Part shown: positions 2,888-27,980 of the stretch, piece after piece | Layout: each line of letters starts with the position of its first letter | Position numbering within the stretch: the stretch's first letter is position 1 | Virus record (IMG/VR): IMGVR_UViG_3300020472_000063 | Span: 1-40,135 of that record | From: a virus | DNA length: 40,135 nt | Reading direction: 5' to 3' (one strand) | Notes under the pieces: model-generated | Databases searched by the model: none | Seen by the model: only the letters and a program-made list of their open reading frames with translations | What the model was told of the DNA's origin: nothing | Made by a program: the position numbers and the translations under genes

Positions 2888-4440
2888 TAATTAAGTAAGA
2901 ATATTTTAACGTGACCCCTACCTCCAACAGAAGAATTATCAGAACTTGTACTTACATCGTTATGCCCTCTTCCTCCATAACCATACCCTTGAGCACCCCC
3001 GCTAACACTTACTTGCAAGCCTAAAGACGATGCCCCAAGTCTGGAATGCCCTCCGTGACCTCCGTTTATTGTTGCGTTTGTTGTAATTGGAGTCTCTCCA
3101 TACCACCTAACATTTCCATCCCCACCTTTGCCGCCAGAATAGGTTTTTATATTGTACGCACCAGAACCCGTCTGGCAATTTGATGCTGCCCCCCCTGCTC
3201 CCCCTACACCAGCAGTGTTTCCACTTGTGTTTCCTTTTAATCCAGCTACAGCTTTAATTAAAACATCTCCAGTAGGAGCAGCAGTTGATGCCGCTGGGCT
3301 ACTTGAATCCGCAGCTACTATATTGGTGTAAACATAAGTATCTCCACCGTTATTGTTTACTGCCCCAGCCGCACCTGATTTAATTTTAAGCAAACAAACT
3401 TGAGTAGTATCAACTGTTACAGTTGCGTCAGTTGACCCTCCCGCTCTGTCTGGTTGAACTATTGTTAAAACGTCTCCAGCGGTATAACCAGAACCTCCAC
3501 TTGTTAATGCAACAGTTTGTACTGCCCCATTTCCGTTTACTGATTGAATAGTGATTGTTGCTCCTGTTCCAGTTCCCCCTGTCGTTGCTAAACCGACTGC
3601 TGTAGAATAATTAGTTCCTCCACTATTTCCTATTGAAGAATTTAAAGTTTTAACCCCGCCGTTTCCAGATACAGAAAAATCACTTTGCACAAAAGCCCCT
3701 GCTCCTCCTCCCGAAGACCCGTGATCAGTACCATCTAGATCGCCAACACCCCCGCCTCCACCTCCACCTACAGCTTGAATTCTTATTTTTGTTGTTGAGC
3801 TAGGGACTAGATAATAACAGTCTGCCGTTCCTGTTGTTTCAAAGACAGGAGACTCTGCGATTTCTAGTTCCTTATATTCTGGGTTTTTGCTGCTACCATT
3901 AGAGGTTAATATATAACCAGCAGTACCTTCTTTCTTTAATTTATCAACCCCAATACTGCTATTATTAATTGTAATCTTATCACTTGAAAAACTGAGGTAG
4001 TCATCGTCCAGAGAGTTTGGATTCAAATGCCTCCCCTCTACAGCTTCATCTTTTAAGGTGAATCGCACGGCTCCAAAAGCGTAGTCTACGTCAACGTCTC
4101 CGCTAGTCCCTGTGCCTTTTAAGGCGAACCCTGTTCCAGTATTTACAAGTAACTCTTTTCCAGACGTAGGGCCACTTGAGCTTCCAACTGGAGCAAGTGC
4201 CGATGCCTTATCATTTCCATCACCTATAATTAAATTGTTAGATGTCAGTTGCAGCTTAGAAATATCTATATTTGCTCCTGCTGGAATTTTAGCGTTTGTC
4301 ACGCTATTGTCGGCAAGCTCAGAGCCACTAATTGATCCCGTGATAGCTATTGTCGGAGTAGCTCCTGCATTTAGTGCTGCCCTTGTTACGTTCCCGCTTG
4401 TGAAGTCATGTCCCTTAGAGACAGTTACATTTAAACCCAT
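2887..4440 (-). CDS. Glycine-rich tail fibre/adhesin
   Basis: This encodes 517 residues. The first 200 carry repeated fibre-like motifs (ISGSELADNSVTNAKIPAGA, then ISKLQLTSNNLIIGD and SVDD/SIGVDKLKKEG segments). The C-terminal half is very rich in glycine, with blocks such as AVGGGGGGGVGDLD, GGHGGHSRLG and GGAQGYGYGGRGHND. Glycine-rich blocks of this kind form polyglycine-II-like sandwiches in some receptor-binding adhesins (for example T4-like S16 gp38); that comparison is an inference. A purine-rich AAAGGA lies about 9 bases before ATG at 4440, so the start has an SD-type signal. It is tightly spaced after the nozzle-like gene. Likely exposed at the tail tip and involved in host recognition. 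Confidence 0.65.
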   Translation of the reverse strand: MGLNVTVSKGHDFTSGNVTRAALNAGATPTIAITGSISGSELADNSVTNAKIPAGANIDISKLQLTSNNLIIGDGNDKASALAPVGSSSGPTSGKELLVNTGTGFALKGTGTSGDVDVDYAFGAVRFTLKDEAVEGRHLNPNSLDDDYLSFSSDKITINNSSIGVDKLKKEGTAGYILTSNGSSKNPEYKELEIAESPVFETTGTADCYYLVPSSTTKIRIQAVGGGGGGGVGDLDGTDHGSSGGGAGAFVQSDFSVSGNGGVKTLNSSIGNSGGTNYSTAVGLATTGGTGTGATITIQSVNGNGAVQTVALTSGGSGYTAGDVLTIVQPDRAGGSTDATVTVDTTQVCLLKIKSGAAGAVNNNGGDTYVYTNIVAADSSSPAASTAAPTGDVLIKAVAGLKGNTSGNTAGVGGAGGAASNCQTGSGAYNIKTYSGGKGGDGNVRWYGETPITTNATINGGHGGHSRLGASSLGLQVSVSGGAQGYGYGGRGHNDVSTSSDNSSVGGRGHVKIFLLN

Positions 4441-22333: not shown

Positions 22334-22377
22334 GCTACCATGATTCGCCGGACTTTGTCTGCATGGTAGCTTTTTTT
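22334..22377 (+). terminator. Perfect hairpin with T7 run on the plus strand
   Basis: GCTACCATG (22334-22342) and CATGGTAGC (22362-22370) are exact inverted repeats with a 19-base loop, followed by seven T on the plus strand. This is a good intrinsic terminator for plus-strand RNA, yet all genes are on the minus strand. On the minus strand it forms the leader of the SSB-like gene with a poly-A before it. It may block antisense transcripts or serve as a structured leader or protein-binding site. Confidence 0.7.
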
Positions 22378-22516
22378 ACACTTCCTTAATTGAAACAATT
22401 GCTCGCTCCAATATCTCTGTTACTGTTGTTTTTCTTTTCTTAGCAACCCGTCTTAATTTTTTTATATGCTCCTTCGTGAAACGGTACGAGCACAGTATTT
22501 TAGCTTTCTTCGTCAT
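22376..22516 (-). CDS. Small ribbon-helix-helix DNA-binding protein
   Basis: This 46-residue protein starts MTKKAKILCSYRFTKEHIKK and continues LRRVAKKRKTTVTEILERA with an ILERAI second helix. The pattern of one short basic strand (ILCSYRF), a helix with spaced Leu/Val, and a second helix after TTVTE is that of CopG/Arc-type repressors. Such dimers insert paired strands into the DNA major groove and bind repeated sites cooperatively. The gene begins 17 bases inside the preceding one and ends at the hairpin 22334-22377. It is a candidate regulator for the three early promoters with TACATAC repeats. Confidence 0.7.
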   Translation of the reverse strand: MTKKAKILCSYRFTKEHIKKLRRVAKKRKTTVTEILERAIVSIKEV

Positions 22517-23157: not shown

Positions 23158-23886
23158 TTATGCCTCCACCTTTTCTTCAATATTTTCCCAGAACTCAGTG
23201 TGTGCTTTTTTGAAGGCTTCTGAGTTAGCTCTTCCAAATGTTTTTGCAAATATCTCAGCACAAATATCCAACCCTCTACCTCTTGGCTCTAAGCCCCTCT
23301 TTAAGTCGCTAACGATTGACTGAACAAATGATCCACCTGACTTATTTGATACCAATATTTGAATAACCCAAAAATTCCACTTGCGGCAAACAAGTTTAAT
23401 TCTTTCCTTACGATCAAGTTCAGCCTGCTCACGCTTGGCATTGCGTTGATCAATCCGCTCTTGCTTAATCTCTGCATTTGTCTTGGCAGGATTTTCCTTG
23501 GAGGGAGCAGCCAACCATTTCTCATTTCGGATTTGACGTTTCTCAGCATTACGCTCACGTTGAACTCTGTTCTTATTAATCTTTGCAGCATCAGCAAGAC
23601 TATCCAAGGATGTCTTTACAACGCAGTCAGAGCCAACAACGAACCGCTTACCCTCACTGTCTCTGATAACATTGTGATGGAAAATCCCCATGCCACAATG
23701 ATCGCAAGAGCCGAGAGAAACTCCGAAACTTTTAGCTACATTACGAGCCTCTTCAGCTTGGACTTGAGCGGCTAAAGCGTTGTGCTCCTGCATAGCCGAT
23801 GAAGGGAGGCTGATGTGGCTGATTATTTCAAATGGGCCAATGCCGCATCCTGATCTTTCAAATGGGTGTATTTTGTTGTTTTTCAT
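23158..23886 (-). CDS. Zinc-ribbon-like early protein
   Basis: This encodes 242 residues from ATG 23886; an in-frame GTG at 23895 is less likely because the leader GCATACA resembles those of neighbouring early genes. A cysteine cluster CDHCGMGIFHHNVI, then RFVVGSDCV, supplies CxxC, HH and a later C, suggesting one metal site. A long Arg/Lys/Glu-rich helical stretch (KINKNRVQRERNAEKRQIRN and onward) follows, then a folded C-terminal domain. It is first behind promoter 23941-23914. The function is unknown; nucleic-acid binding is plausible. Confidence 0.55.
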   Translation of the reverse strand: MKNNKIHPFERSGCGIGPFEIISHISLPSSAMQEHNALAAQVQAEEARNVAKSFGVSLGSCDHCGMGIFHHNVIRDSEGKRFVVGSDCVVKTSLDSLADAAKINKNRVQRERNAEKRQIRNEKWLAAPSKENPAKTNAEIKQERIDQRNAKREQAELDRKERIKLVCRKWNFWVIQILVSNKSGGSFVQSIVSDLKRGLEPRGRGLDICAEIFAKTFGRANSEAFKKAHTEFWENIEEKVEA

Positions 23887-23913: not shown

Positions 23914-23941
23914 ATTATACATACATTTGTACATACGTCAA
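23914..23941 (-). promoter_or_regulatory. Early promoter A (sigma70 type) with operator
   Basis: TTGACG (23941-23936), a 16-base spacer, then perfect TATAAT (23919-23914). The spacer holds two direct TACATAC copies (plus strand, 18-24 and 30-36 of the local numbering from 23900, i.e. 12 bases apart). The preceding AAGGGGG/GGGGT before -35 is shared with promoters B and C. It would drive the zinc-ribbon gene and the operon behind it. Confidence 0.8.
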
Positions 23942-23952
23942 CCCCCTAAATA

Positions 23953-24912
23953 TTATTTAACTGCCCAAAAACTCTTATCTTTTTTTTCCTCGATGGCTAT
24001 GGCGATTACACATGGCTCACCCTTACGAGTGGGCCATTGTGTAAAAGGTCTGCCATAGCAGGAGTAGTTTGTAATCTGGTGAGTGTTCCATGTTTGCCTC
24101 TCACCGTCCTCACACTCAACTTCTAAAGTCGAGAACGACCATAAATATCCTGTTAGTTTTGCGGTCTTTACTTCCTTACCAATCTTTCTAGCGAGCTTGT
24201 AAACGTATCGCAAGATTTCCATCTTAGCTATTTCAGTAGCTTGAGCTACATCTTTTTCAGACCAAGCCCTTTGTAGCTTTCCAGTTTCTTGCTGCTTTTT
24301 GTTTGCCCTTGCTATGAAAATGTATTTGCAGTTTTTAACAAATTTCTTGATGTAATCAGTTTCATATTCTTCAGCAACTTTCCAGAGCTTACCTTCAAAT
24401 ATTGGATCAACTTTTTTTAGTTGTTCAAATGTGTAATTTTTTCTCTCACGAGCTTTGTCACGTTCTTCCCTAGCTACCATTAGATCGTGCTGGCATCCTT
24501 TAATGTTATCAAAAGCAAACTCAATCTTTTCACGGTATGGTGCAAACTTATCTTCACCAAATGCCTGCTCACCTTTACGAATAAATGAATTAACCATTTT
24601 CTCTGAAGAATTAATTGAAGCGTTTTGAAAAATTGTGAACTTATTTTTTTCTTTCCAGTTATAGCTCATTGCAACATTAACTCTTATGTGTGCTTCACTT
24701 AGTTGCGGAGCAATCCTTTTCTGCAATTTTAATTGATTATTAACAATCTGATCCATCTCGTCACGTTGAGGTTTATTGTTTAACTCTTCAGCTTCAAACT
24801 CTTCCTTAGACAAACCTTTCTCCAAGTCTTGTTGGATTTGATTTACTAATTTTTCAAGTTCTCTTTTTTCTAATTCGACTGAGTCTTGTAGATGTCCGAT
24901 ATATGCTTTCAT
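23953..24912 (-). CDS. Helical early protein, unknown
   Basis: This encodes 319 residues. The first 120 are mainly charged helix (ELEKRELEKLVNQIQQDLEK, KPQRDEMDQIVNNQLKLQKR), probably a coiled coil. The middle is basic (VKNCKYIFIARANKKQQETG). The C-terminal 80 are strand-rich with Trp and Cys (TGYLWSFSTLEVECEDGERQ, TWNTHQITNYSCYGRPF). No catalytic motif is recognised. The leader ACATAAATACA before ATG 24912 is shared with the next upstream gene. A GC hairpin at 24946-24961 precedes it. Confidence 0.5.
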   Translation of the reverse strand: MKAYIGHLQDSVELEKRELEKLVNQIQQDLEKGLSKEEFEAEELNNKPQRDEMDQIVNNQLKLQKRIAPQLSEAHIRVNVAMSYNWKEKNKFTIFQNASINSSEKMVNSFIRKGEQAFGEDKFAPYREKIEFAFDNIKGCQHDLMVAREERDKARERKNYTFEQLKKVDPIFEGKLWKVAEEYETDYIKKFVKNCKYIFIARANKKQQETGKLQRAWSEKDVAQATEIAKMEILRYVYKLARKIGKEVKTAKLTGYLWSFSTLEVECEDGERQTWNTHQITNYSCYGRPFTQWPTRKGEPCVIAIAIEEKKDKSFWAVK

Positions 24913-24945
24913 TGTATTTATGTTTTTTATTTTTGTTACTAATAA

Positions 24946-24961
24946 GGGGGTCTATGCCCCC
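24946..24961 (-). terminator. Weak GC hairpin/attenuator
   Basis: Minus strand GGGGG, a six-base loop including the TAG stop of the upstream gene, then CCCCC followed by TTATTAG. The stem is strong but short and the T tract is poor, so it is more likely an attenuator or RNA-stability element than a full terminator. Confidence 0.35.
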
Positions 24962-25275
24962 GCAATTCCTGCTATCCTTACAAGTGGGCCATTGTGTACG
25001 TTTCCTAAAAGTTCCTTGGCAACAGCATCCCCAAGTAATTTAATAAACTCACCCCTGATTACATTTATTGCTTGTTTGATATCTTCATTCATTAGCAAAT
25101 CTTTTGATATCCCGCCGAGCAGATCGCAAAACCATTCTCCTTTATCACCCTTAATAGAAGCCCATTCTTCAGCATCTTCAAGAGTTGGAGTGTATTGTGA
25201 AACTACTGTACGACCAGCACATGATTCTGTTCTTGGCCATTCCATTGTTAGTTCTATTGTTGTTTTTGATTTCAT
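24952..25275 (-). CDS. Small early protein, unknown
   Basis: This encodes 107 residues from ATG 25275 (MKSKTTIELTMEWPRTESCA), chosen because the leader ACATAAATACA repeats that of the next gene. A strand (TTIELTMEWPRTE) is followed by a helical region with Trp (DAEEWASIKGDKGEWFCDLL, then IKQAINVIRGEFIKLLGDAV) and a hydrophobic C-terminus. It is second behind promoter B. No known family. Confidence 0.5.
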   Translation of the reverse strand: MKSKTTIELTMEWPRTESCAGRTVVSQYTPTLEDAEEWASIKGDKGEWFCDLLGGISKDLLMNEDIKQAINVIRGEFIKLLGDAVAKELLGNVHNGPLVRIAGIAGA

Positions 25276-25297
25276 TGTATTTATGTTTGTTGGTTGA

Positions 25298-25444
25298 TTA
25301 TCCGAAATTAACTGGCTTGATTGTTTCTTCTGTTTCAGCATCCCAAGCGTTAATTATTAACTCGCCTGTGCTATCATCGATGTAAACGGTTTTGCCATTG
25401 ATTGTGATGTAAACTGCCTCTTTTGATGTCTTTTCTATTTTCAT
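25298..25444 (-). CDS. 48-residue early protein, unknown
   Basis: This short frame from ATG 25444 encodes MKIEKTSKEAVYITINGKTV, then YIDDSTGELIINAWDAETE and TIKPVNFG. Strand-turn-strand motifs (VYITINGKTVYID) suggest a small beta sheet. It is the first gene behind promoter B, 30 bases downstream of the -10, and ends 22 bases before the next gene. Position and clear reading frame support it; function unknown. Confidence 0.6.
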   Translation of the reverse strand: MKIEKTSKEAVYITINGKTVYIDDSTGELIINAWDAETEETIKPVNFG

Positions 25445-25473
25445 TGTAAGTTACCCTTTCTTGGGGTGACATC

Positions 25474-25502
25474 AATGTACATACATATATACATACAGTC
25501 AA
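25474..25502 (-). promoter_or_regulatory. Early promoter B (sigma70 type) with operator
   Basis: TTGACT (25502-25497), 17-base spacer, TACATT (25479-25474; 4 of 6 with the consensus). The plus-strand spacer holds TACATAC twice at 12-base spacing (25478-25484 and 25490-25496). The sequence GGGGTTGAC at the -35 is common to all three early promoters. The transcript would start about 20-25 bases before ATG 25444. Confidence 0.75.
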
Positions 25503-25544
25503 CCCCTTATTTATCCCTTTTTGTAATTTTTTTCAAATGGCAAA

Positions 25545-25565
25545 AACCCTAATAAAACAAGGGTT
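25545..25565 (-). terminator. Intrinsic terminator after Lar-like gene
   Basis: Minus strand AACCCT, nine-base loop, AGGGTT followed by TTT. It lies between the stop of the Lar-like gene and promoter B, and separates two early transcription units. Confidence 0.6.
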
Positions 25566-25575
25566 GATTTTTCTA

Positions 25576-25773
25576 TTATGGTTTTCTGCTGTTCCATTTT
25601 TCAATAATATCATACTCGTTTTTGGTAAACATTTCTGAGTCTTGGCACATCATAGTGTCGCAAGGTCTGCAAGAAATCATCCAGCCAGTAATCTCTGAGC
25701 CTTCTCCGTATTCACTTATTGAAACTTCAGCCCCACAATGAGGGCAGGGTTTTAATGATTCATCTTCACTCAT
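25576..25773 (-). CDS. Lar-like zinc-ribbon protein (restriction alleviation family)
   Basis: This encodes 65 residues. LKPCPHCGAEVSISEYGEGS, then GWMISCRPCDTMM and IIEKWNSRKP, match the Lar family: two CxxC knuckles (CPHC and CRPC) and a conserved W-N-R end. Lar of Rac prophage lowers type I restriction by raising methylation; many family members are only known by sequence. The position late in early operon C fits a host-takeover gene. Overlaps the upstream gene by four bases. Confidence 0.65.
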   Translation of the reverse strand: MSEDESLKPCPHCGAEVSISEYGEGSEITGWMISCRPCDTMMCQDSEMFTKNEYDIIEKWNSRKP

Positions 25774-26054
25774 CGTTTTAACTTCCTTAACTTTGGTAGT
25801 GGATCAAGCATGACAAAATCACCATGCTGCATTAGCCACGCTTTAGAGTAATTGTTTTTGGACAGAAACTTTTCTTTGCGATCATATCCAAACTTTTCAG
25901 TATCAGCATCCCAATCAACGCACTTACAAAACCTATCTACAATTGTCTTGGTTGCCTTCAGCTTAGGAAGCAAGCCAACATGGGTTAGCATTTTATATTG
26001 CTTCTCCAGTTTGGCTTGTACTTCCACAAGGTTAGTTTTCTTCTTACTCTTCAT
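25770..26054 (-). CDS. Small basic protein, unknown
   Basis: This encodes 94 residues from ATG 26054 (MKSKKKTNLVEVQAKLEKQY), which lies 11 bases inside the preceding stop; an upstream frame extension has no better start. Basic and helical at first, with a C-terminus rich in Lys and Leu (LDPLPKLRKLKR). FCKCVDWD contains a CxC pair. No family recognised; it joins the Lar-like gene by a four-base overlap. Confidence 0.5.
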   Translation of the reverse strand: MKSKKKTNLVEVQAKLEKQYKMLTHVGLLPKLKATKTIVDRFCKCVDWDADTEKFGYDRKEKFLSKNNYSKAWLMQHGDFVMLDPLPKLRKLKR

Positions 26055-26484
26055 GTCCGTTTTCCAGAAACTGCTCCCACTGGTTTTGGAATCTGTCAAC
26101 AATCTGATCACCCAATTCCTGCTTAACAGTTTGATCTTCTGTGTCACCTAGTTGGATGCTTAAAAACTTATAAACATCATAATCACCAAATTGTGGGAAT
26201 GCTTGCTTGCTGGATAGCTCACCTTTAGCGACTGTAAATTTATTGTTGTTAACATCAATCAGTGACGCTTCTAAATCCCACTCACTAAAACTGAAATCAA
26301 TAATTTCAAACCACTCGCTGTGTGGAGGTTCAGTCTGAGTTGCCTCAACTGCTGGGTGATAATTATATCTAACCATCACATCCACGTTCTCAACCCACAC
26401 TTCAAATCTGACAAACTCGTTGAGGTGTACGGTTAGTGGAGTGTCTGTTATATCGACAGGAATGCGTTGCAGTTTGGTGTCCAT
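26044..26484 (-). CDS. Acidic early protein, unknown
   Basis: This encodes 146 residues. Beta-rich first half (VHLNEFVRFEVWVENVDVMV, then PPHSEWFEIIDFSFSEWDLE) and a helical, Gln/Glu-rich C-terminus (DQIVDRFQNQWEQFLENGHE). Strongly acidic overall. It is joined to the upstream gene by a one-base stop/start overlap. No family known; DNA mimicry is possible on charge alone. Confidence 0.5.
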   Translation of the reverse strand: MDTKLQRIPVDITDTPLTVHLNEFVRFEVWVENVDVMVRYNYHPAVEATQTEPPHSEWFEIIDFSFSEWDLEASLIDVNNNKFTVAKGELSSKQAFPQFGDYDVYKFLSIQLGDTEDQTVKQELGDQIVDRFQNQWEQFLENGHEE

Positions 26485-26834
26485 TATTTTCCCCCCTTTC
26501 TCACAATCTTTTGCATGAAGAACTCATGTCCTCTCTCAAGGTTTCTAACCCTTCTCAAAAGCTCTTCCACAACACTAAGCTGTGCAAGCATCTGGTCGCT
26601 AACCTGACTGCCATGTGTGGCTTTGCCTGTGTTCGGTTTGCGTAAATCTTTACGCTTAATATTTAACCGAGTCCCATTCTTGGCGTAACGTGACACCAAG
26701 TTCACCAGCAATGCATCTTGCTGTGTTTGAATCTCGTCAAGTGCTGCTGCACTGATTGATTTAAGTTTAGGGTTAGCAACCTTGCCAACCTCCATGACTC
26801 TCTTGTGGAGTCGTTTTCTGTTATGATAACTCAT
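26484..26834 (-). CDS. Basic helical early protein, unknown
   Basis: This encodes 116 residues. Very basic N-terminus (SYHNRKRLHKRVMEVGKVAN), a helical middle (ALDEIQTQQDALLVNLVSRY), a basic loop and a C-terminal leucine/arginine helix (LSVVEELLRRVRNLERGHEF). Possible nucleic-acid binding with a coiled-coil end. The leader contains a 35-base sequence duplicated before the next upstream gene. Confidence 0.5.
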   Translation of the reverse strand: MSYHNRKRLHKRVMEVGKVANPKLKSISAAALDEIQTQQDALLVNLVSRYAKNGTRLNIKRKDLRKPNTGKATHGSQVSDQMLAQLSVVEELLRRVRNLERGHEFFMQKIVRKGGK

Positions 26835-26837
26835 AGT

Positions 26838-26872
26838 ATTTTTTATTGTTTGTTGATTAATAAGTTCCTGTT
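26838..26872 (-). repeat. 35-base direct repeat, downstream copy
   Basis: Identical to 27329-27363. This copy includes the last codons and stop of the 157-residue gene and the leader of the 116-residue gene. Minus strand contains AACAGGAACTTATTAATC and ends in CAATAAAAAAT. Confidence 0.95.
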
Positions 26873-27330
26873 AGTGATTCTAGTTCTTTTAAAACATCTT
26901 CTTTAGTCAGGGTTGCTGTTGCAATTGCATCTGTATGCTCCCCTGTTGGTTCTGGATCAACTCCTTCAAGTTTCTCCCTGTGCGATTCGTAACAATATAC
27001 AGCAGCATCCATTAAGATGGTAAAACCGTATGCGGGGATTCCGTTTTCAATATCATTTTTGATATGAAATAAAGCTCCTCTAATTTCTGACTCTATATTT
27101 TTTCTTGTTGGAAAATCGCTATCGTAATAAGCCCTTAAATCAGATGTGTCTGTGTGTTCTGGAGGAGGGCTTTGATAACCATCTTCATCAATTGGGTGAA
27201 CGACTGAAGTGTGATTGCTGGTAAAGAAAATCCATTTACGCCTTTCTCCAGATGTATAATAATCTTTAACAGATTCACGTTTAATTTTTGCAAACTTTTC
27301 TCGGATGTTTTTATGTATGTACTTATTCAT
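26857..27330 (-). CDS. Early protein, unknown
   Basis: This encodes 157 residues. N-terminus is basic and helical (NKYIHKNIREKFAKIKRESV), followed by an aromatic region (YYTSGERRKWIFFTSNHTSV), a Pro/Asp-rich loop and helices (NIESEIRGALFHIKNDIENG, YGFTILMDAAVYCYESHREK). No known family. It is flanked by the two copies of the 35-base repeat. Leader CAATAAAAA immediately before ATG. Confidence 0.5.
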   Translation of the reverse strand: MNKYIHKNIREKFAKIKRESVKDYYTSGERRKWIFFTSNHTSVVHPIDEDGYQSPPPEHTDTSDLRAYYDSDFPTRKNIESEIRGALFHIKNDIENGIPAYGFTILMDAAVYCYESHREKLEGVDPEPTGEHTDAIATATLTKEDVLKELESLTGTY

Positions 27331-27363
27331 TTTTTATTGTTTGTTGATTAATAAGTTCCTGTT
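27329..27363 (-). repeat. 35-base direct repeat, upstream copy
   Basis: Exact copy of 26838-26872; here the first two bases include the start of the 157-residue gene's ATG and the rest is intergenic. The copies frame that gene, so it could be deleted or duplicated by recombination. Confidence 0.95.
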
Positions 27364-27365
27364 CA

Positions 27366-27602
27366 TTAAATAGGGCAAACCTCACAGGCGTTTGGGTTAT
27401 CCTTACTGTATTCGTTATATGTGTTTATAATTTCTTCAGCCCTTGCCATAGCTGCTTTTTTGGTTCTGAAAAACTCGGTGAGTGTTGTGCCGATAACTTG
27501 CACAGACCATTTCCATTTGCCTGTTTCGTGATCACTTCTCCATACATCAACTCTTGTTTCCAAGTTTGTGTACCCTTTCCAGACTTTTTTGTAGTTTATC
27601 AT
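27366..27602 (-). CDS. Small basic early protein, unknown
   Basis: This encodes 78 residues from ATG 27602 (MINYKKVWKGYTNLETRVDV); an in-frame ATG at 27632 lies close to the predicted transcription start. Strands (VDVWRSDHETGKWKWSVQVI) are followed by a helix (EFFRTKKAAMARAEEIINTY) and a C-terminal CEVCPI pair. First gene behind promoter C. The basic Trp-rich N-terminus and helix could bind nucleic acid; no family known. Confidence 0.55.
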   Translation of the reverse strand: MINYKKVWKGYTNLETRVDVWRSDHETGKWKWSVQVIGTTLTEFFRTKKAAMARAEEIINTYNEYSKDNPNACEVCPI

Positions 27603-27652
27603 TTGTATTTTTATTTTTGATTTGGTGCTCACCTAATCGAGCGAACACAGAC

Positions 27653-27681
27653 AGTATACATACAACTGTATGTATAGTCAA
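27653..27681 (-). promoter_or_regulatory. Early promoter C (sigma70 type) with operator
   Basis: TTGACT (27681-27676), 17-base spacer, TATACT (27658-27653; 5 of 6 with the consensus -10). Start about 40 bases before ATG 27602. The spacer is occupied by the perfect palindrome at 27655-27676. It is the furthest upstream of the three related promoters and sits just behind the winged-helix gene. Confidence 0.8.
27655..27676. promoter_or_regulatory. Operator-like palindrome in promoter C
   Basis: TATACATACA and TGTATGTATA are exact 10-base inverted repeats with a two-base gap. They cover the whole spacer and reach into -10 and -35, so a bound protein would block RNA polymerase. Promoters A and B have one matching half and a direct TACATAC repeat 12 bases away. 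Confidence 0.75.
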
Positions 27682-27701: not shown

Positions 27702-27980
27702 TTATTGGGTATTTGGAGGGCCGTAGTATTTTATTTTACGAAGAACACCATCAAGTTTATGCCTGCAAGTTATCTCTGCAAGCTCACCACTTGCGACCAT
27801 TGCTTTAACTCGATAGTGCAATGTGTTTTTGTTAACGCCCAATTCTTGAACAAGTTGGTTAACAGATTTGTAATTATCTGGAGGTGTGGATTCCTCGTAA
27901 TTTTTTTGAAGATCAGCTACCCAATCTGAATTAGGTTTTTTAGTCCTATGAATTTTTCCCCTACCTTTTCCATCTGCCAT
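27702..27980 (-). CDS. Winged helix-turn-helix regulator
   Basis: This encodes 92 residues with AGGAGA about 9 bases before ATG 27980. A basic N-terminus (ADGKGRGKIHRTKKPNSDW) precedes a winged-helix pattern: SVNQLVQELGVNKNTLHYRV as helix-turn-helix and MVASGELAEITCRHKLDGVL as wing. The gene lies immediately upstream of promoter C and overlaps the phosphoesterase by 64 bases. Role as an early-gene regulator is likely but target unproven. Unlike the RHH protein it is not preceded by an early promoter. Confidence 0.65.
   Translation of the reverse strand: MADGKGRGKIHRTKKPNSDWVADLQKNYEESTPPDNYKSVNQLVQELGVNKNTLHYRVKAMVASGELAEITCRHKLDGVLRKIKYYGPPNTQ

Follow-up and report, generated by a model that had tools for sequence, protein, structure and literature searches.

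Three early promoters of an uncultured phage share a putative operator, the predicted target of a small Arc-like RHH protein

The window, which is the whole IMG/VR virus record G000 (40,135 bp), contains three promoters, P1, P2 and P3, that are best explained as host sigma-70 promoters of the early region. As part of the same explanation, each of them is overlaid by a putative 20-bp operator, RTAYRTAYA-NN-TGTATGTAY, composed of two quasi-palindromic octamers 12 bp apart. Judged from sequence comparisons, a 46-aa RHH protein encoded downstream of P1 is probably an Arc-like early autorepressor, the predicted reader of the operators at P1, P2 and P3, which would also repress its own operon. We regard the reading as a whole as probable, with considerable room left for doubt. 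The features concerned are:

23914..23941, minus strand: predicted promoter P1, TTGACG-16-TATAAT, preceded by GGGG; octamers at 23929-23936 and 23917-23924
23917..23936, minus strand: putative operator of P1, GTATGTAC-AAAT-GTATGTAT, direct form
25474..25502, minus strand: predicted promoter P2, TTGACT-17-TACATT, preceded by GGGG
25477..25496, minus strand: putative operator of P2, GTATGTAT-ATAT-GTATGTAC
27653..27681, minus strand: predicted promoter P3, TTGACT-17-TATACT, preceded by GGGG
27656..27675, minus strand: putative operator of P3, ATACATAC-AGTT-GTATGTAT, perfect inverted repeat
23158..23886, minus strand: first gene of the P1 operon, 242 aa, weak match to phrog_2319
25298..25444, minus strand: first gene of the P2 operon, 48 aa
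27366..27602, minus strand: first gene of the P3 operon, 78 aa
22376..22516, minus strand: 46-aa RHH (Arc-like) protein, fourth predicted gene downstream of P1, best candidate for the reader and autorepressor
27702..27980, minus strand: winged-helix protein, 92 aa, just upstream of P3, rival reader

On re-reading of the window, the coordinates, hexamers and spacer lengths (16-17) that an earlier note had given for the three promoters were all correct. The same was true of the shared GGGGTTGAC at their -35 regions, of which the 40 kb contain only three exact copies, all of them at P1, P2 and P3. Each spacer harbors two RTAYRTAY octamers spaced 12 bp from start to start, i.e. in an 8-4-8 frame. 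The window contains exactly three instances of RTAYRTAY-N4-RTAYRTAY, again only at P1-P3, and 300 first-order Markov sequences contained none; TACATAC alone showed a mild enrichment (8 seen, 3.7 expected). Beyond this core the flanks of the three promoters have no likeness to each other. The direct repeats at 12 bases that had been reported for P1 and P2 are real, and so is the 10-base inverted repeat of P3 (TATACATACA-GT-TGTATGTATA; in 7-4-7 terms the core reads TACATAC-AGTT-GTATGTA). They do not form separate classes, as all of them fit the one 8-4-8 frame, which the earlier note had not recognized. RTAYRTAY is its own reverse complement and each half is quasi-palindromic, so that only the central TG or CA determines whether a pair is 'direct' or 'inverted'.

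All three promoters are also present in the nearest relative, G001 (37,131 bp). Its P1 operator is the inverted GTACATAC-AGAT-GTATGTAT, which differs from the direct form of the window by two adjacent transitions and one N4 change, and the flank downstream of P1 is identical over more than 100 bases. Because the inverted form lies only these two adjacent transitions away within nearly identical flanks, we consider direct and inverted pairs as variants of one site, and the direct repeat was dropped as an operator class of its own. Between the window and G001, six out of 60 operator positions differ as against 14 out of 756 flanking ones (Fisher p 0.002). Four of the six differences reside at the central NN, the other two constitute the flip at P1. 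Thus, the outer octamer letters are kept and the centre can vary, the pattern that a binding site would be predicted to show. The 46-aa RHH protein is 100% identical in G001. Among the terminase relatives the exact 20-bp pair was limited to G001, and a search for single octamers was adopted after this had become apparent. The window and G001 are nearly the same phage and hence not independent of each other; G006, G007, G033 and G034 are separate records of more distant phages. Outside this group, matches to TTGAC-N0-2-GTATGTA-N5-GTATGTA in L002-L009 (viral_contigs) looked like one coding sequence at the start of a gene (MPYIPKYIQSS) on unrelated contigs and were discarded as chance hits, which left G001 as the only other match; a match in L023 lay in coding sequence and was discarded as well.

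Further phage fragments were gathered by terminase and exonuclease searches. Six records (the window, G001, G006, G007, G033 and G034) possess an RHH protein with LCS[FY]R. Their early regions contain 36 octamers against 2.6 expected, 29 of which are situated within 45 nt of TTGAC, and octamers were found upstream of the exonuclease gene in all six. The rest of the same records' loci gave 13 octamers (9.2 expected). In the 14 loci of relatives without a detectable homologue of the 46-aa protein no octamer was seen (about 1.6 expected), nor in the early regions of all relatives lacking an LCS-type RHH protein (1.9 expected). Sites, promoter restriction, conservation and switching across relatives as well as gene order can be read from the DNA directly. 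The possibility that the operators resemble each other by chance or by recent promoter duplication has a practically negligible probability. It could draw on G001 being nearly the same phage, but the absence of the pattern from all 300 Markov shuffles and its recurrence in four further lineages refute it, and the dissimilar flanks of P1, P2 and P3 speak against it, too.

In the early promoters of G006, G007, G033 and G034 the octamer takes the form GTAYRTAC and mostly lies over the -10 box. A second copy is often located upstream of the -35 region about 30 bp away, or at a spacing of 10 bp inside the spacer. Most early-operon promoters of these four records retain only the -10-side octamer in the spacer, a finding which counts against our explanation. 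In most relatives the beginning of the -10 box is overlapped by the conserved copy, so GTATGTA might belong to the core promoter that the host polymerase recognizes, and no repressor would be needed. We hold this to be very unlikely, since copies also occur upstream of and at the -35 side with spacings of 10, 12 or 30 bp, and relatives with a variant RHH protein use a different repeat at matching promoters. The placement relative to -10 and -35 and the spacing of the octamers are variable, so a core promoter element alone does not account for them. The earlier claim that the spacers are read by a protein is well supported by the recurrence of the element in divergent relatives at differing positions and by the swapped repeat in the variant-RHH relatives. 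After the early promoters of relatives, a conserved hairpin-like leader (CTCCCCGAGGAAGGGG and variants) was noticed (L078:1480-1530 and 3080-3130; L072:720-760 and 1770-1815), of which the window has a weaker version at 25445-25470 after P2 (CACCCCAAGAAAGGGT).

Nearly all genes of the window are carried on the minus strand, in the order late block (right), phosphoesterase, winged-helix gene, P3, P2, P1, replication genes, terminase and capsid. PaP3/LUZ24-type phages and phiM5 have distant relatives of the window's major capsid protein (25-29% identity). Among the window ORFs searched there was neither an integrase nor an XRE/CI-like lysogeny repressor. In the early region, the intergenic sequence TTTTTTATTGTTTGTTGATTAATAAGTTCCTGTT is duplicated (26838-26872 and 27330-27365) ahead of two successive early genes. 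The gene at 23953-24912 shares 77% identity with L011:2950-3912, which lies on a phage fragment whose lambda-like head genes are unrelated, and so it looks like a mobile cassette. The promoter of the L011 cassette, TTGACT-AAACCTAACAGTTAGGT-TTTACT, contains a different perfect inverted repeat in its spacer.

The earlier note had listed two small DNA-binding genes, at 22376-22516 and 27702-27980, without deciding between their products as reader of the sites. Both calls turned out to be weaker than stated with respect to Pfam, where matches were absent or below cutoff, and both are backed by fold matches. The 46-aa protein of the window showed no RHH match in Pfam (only DUF6364, E 0.055); its homologue in L042 gave RHH_1 with E 0.018, under the cutoff, and a PDB sequence search with the RHH alignment yielded no match. 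In the structural model (pLDDT 79) both helices are of high confidence, and the N-terminal segment of the monomer is drawn, with low confidence, as a helix and not as a strand. A fold search with this model returned Arc first and almost only RHH proteins (ParG, CopG, CdbA, AmrZ), with E-values above 1 because the model is so small. On account of these fold matches and the weak RHH matches of its homologues, the protein likely belongs to the RHH superfamily, although formally it stays below the Pfam threshold. Homologues are encoded at the same place in G006, G007, G033, G034, L042, L080 and L114.

The 46-aa-type RHH gene is immediately preceded by an octamer in G006, G007, G033 and G034; in G007 and G033 the octamers there are inside the spacer. 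Three relatives (G006, G007 and G033) also contain an octamer upstream of a second, divergent and longer RHH gene, whose product matched Pfam RHH_1 above the cutoff in two of the three cases and RHH_3 and RHH_1 under the cutoff in the third. These positions suggest an autoregulatory layout. In those three relatives the sites could be read by this second RHH protein rather than by the 46-aa type. Its gene, however, is missing from the window and G001, which makes the 46-aa protein the only candidate common to all. G007 apparently encodes in its early region, besides two others, a further RHH-like protein of 80 aa (L071:1258 and L071:2769, both minus strand), which suggests layered RHH control in this phage.

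Another candidate reader is the winged-helix protein (27702-27980), whose gene stands at the end of the late block before P3 and whose product might read the operators and shut the early promoters off late. In Pfam it produced winged-HTH matches below the cutoff only; its model (pLDDT 62) folds as a winged helix and matches winged-helix regulators. The gene adjoins P3, and a homologue in G033 (29%) occupies a matching place just before the early region. Moreover, all eight amino-acid differences to the G001 protein are in residues 22-50, a stretch that spans the HTH, with surroundings that are otherwise nearly the same, and the operators of the two phages diverge as well, at the rates given above. 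At the DNA level, 25 of 126 bases differ from G001 at 27792-27917, confined to the HTH-coding part within about 2 kb of almost identical DNA. Yet other short diverged tracts exist in the same region, and the common divergence of protein and operators may be due to mosaic recombination. In addition, no octamer precedes the winged-helix gene itself, no homologue was found in the octamer-bearing fragments G006, G007 and G034, and a helix-turn-helix dimer is unlikely to tolerate a flipped half-site. Used as search seed, the protein reached G001 only, as did the first P1 gene, and a search of the phage record collection yielded no relative of it. We judge this alternative as unlikely, and the comparison favours the RHH protein as the reader.

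A host or resident-prophage repressor might also recognize the operator, in the sense of immunity or host control of phage entry. XRE repressors do have operators of this kind, since in the Mu-like phage L022 an almost identical one (TTGAC-TTACATACGTTTGTATGTAA) is located beside a divergent CI-like repressor gene. There, the promoter TTGACT-TACATACGTTTGTATG-TAAACT (L022:5111-5140) carries it in its spacer, with the gene for the CI-like XRE repressor on one side and, on the other, that for a small HTH protein presumably resembling BcepMu gp16-type proteins; the likeness to our operators is probably convergence. However, the octamers vary with the type of RHH protein that the phage itself encodes and lie next to its gene, and no relative of the phage exonuclease was found in 84,980 bacterial and archaeal genomes. 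Both points argue against a foreign repressor and make it highly improbable.

Returning to the RHH protein, its homologues can be divided according to the motif they contain. LCS[FY]R homologues accompany GTATGTA or GTATATAC, while the LCNFR/LMNFR homologues of L042, L080 and L114 are accompanied by GTAAAGAC repeats without GTATGTA. L114, fetched after the idea of a link between RHH type and operator had been formed, exhibits TCTTTAC-TGAT-GTAAAGA shortly before its RHH gene, in an inverted 7-4-7 arrangement identical to that of P3. The β-strand contacts of Arc are made by Q9, N11 and R13, and in a gap-free alignment the S/N position coincides with Arc N11. The N-type proteins form one clade, and the association hence represents a single switch on the tree, not repeated evidence. 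A tentative proposal, less probable than the autorepressor itself, is that these proteins make up one family of small early RHH repressors that control their own genes and have an evolving operator code of their own. In this family the exchange from S to N at one β-strand contact position would accompany the switch of all early-region operators from GTATGTA to GTAAAGA, 7-4-7 would be kept and half-sites would flip freely among close relatives. If true, the group would document a natural case in which a repressor and its multi-site regulon shifted specificity in concert.

Transcription from P1 would run into the RHH gene, which is encoded on the same strand and not separated from it by a convincing terminator. 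The P1 operator resides within the spacer of the promoter of the predicted repressor, as in an Arc-type arrangement. We infer the identity of the binding protein, repression as the sign of its effect, and the timing. On phage entry RNA polymerase would fire P1, P2 and P3, and the RHH protein made from the P1 operon would accumulate. One dimer per octamer would then bind between -35 and -10 and block initiation, so that negative feedback would silence the early genes, including its own operon, ahead of late expression. Since an RHH dimer is two-fold symmetric, it could read the short box either way, and a half-site could flip without loss.

In a close known counterpart of this layout, the Arc operator lies between -10 and -35 of Pant and consists of two half-sites about one turn apart. 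According to Youderian et al. 1982, as cited in PMC2629481, Arc of Salmonella phage P22 controls ant and its own synthesis. The similarities comprise a tiny phage RHH protein, autogenous control (proposed here) and the first rank in the fold search. Unlike P22, the window phage is of a non-lambdoid podovirus type without a detected integrase or an antirepressor, and has a regulon of several early operons in which half-sites flip and spacing varies; the contact residues are L-S-R as opposed to Q-N-R in Arc. Dimers of omega, the RHH ParB of plasmid pSM19035, recognize 7-bp boxes in promoters whether these are repeated directly or inverted (PMC9499535), and the tolerance of flipped half-sites predicted here thus fits an RHH reader. 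However, the heptads of omega are contiguous without gaps, it functions in partition and its sequence is unrelated to the 46-aa protein. In the archaeal virus Aca8 regulon, a regulatory sequence is shared by several strong early promoters, which are expressed first and then repressed by a small viral regulator (PMC11065993), the same scheme as proposed here. Aca8, in contrast, is described as wHTH and acts on archaeal promoters (PMC11065993), and no anti-defence gene is known in the window phage. Bruynoghevirus-like phages (PaP3, LUZ24) and Sinorhizobium phage phiM5 resemble it in the major capsid protein (~25% identity), and literature searches disclosed no regulatory counterpart in PaP3/LUZ24-like phages or phiM5.

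By analogy, we propose that the circuit works like P22 Arc and also resembles the shared early regulatory sequences of Aca-type systems. It would stand out by a regulon spanning several operons, by a half-site that flips and by operators that seem to change with the RHH type. The analysis supplies a repressor-operator pair that can be tested in a group of uncultured phages. The shared regulatory tag would mark small early genes expressed together on entry, which are candidates for host takeover or counter-defence, and the system may be a natural case of coordinated change of a repressor and all its operators.
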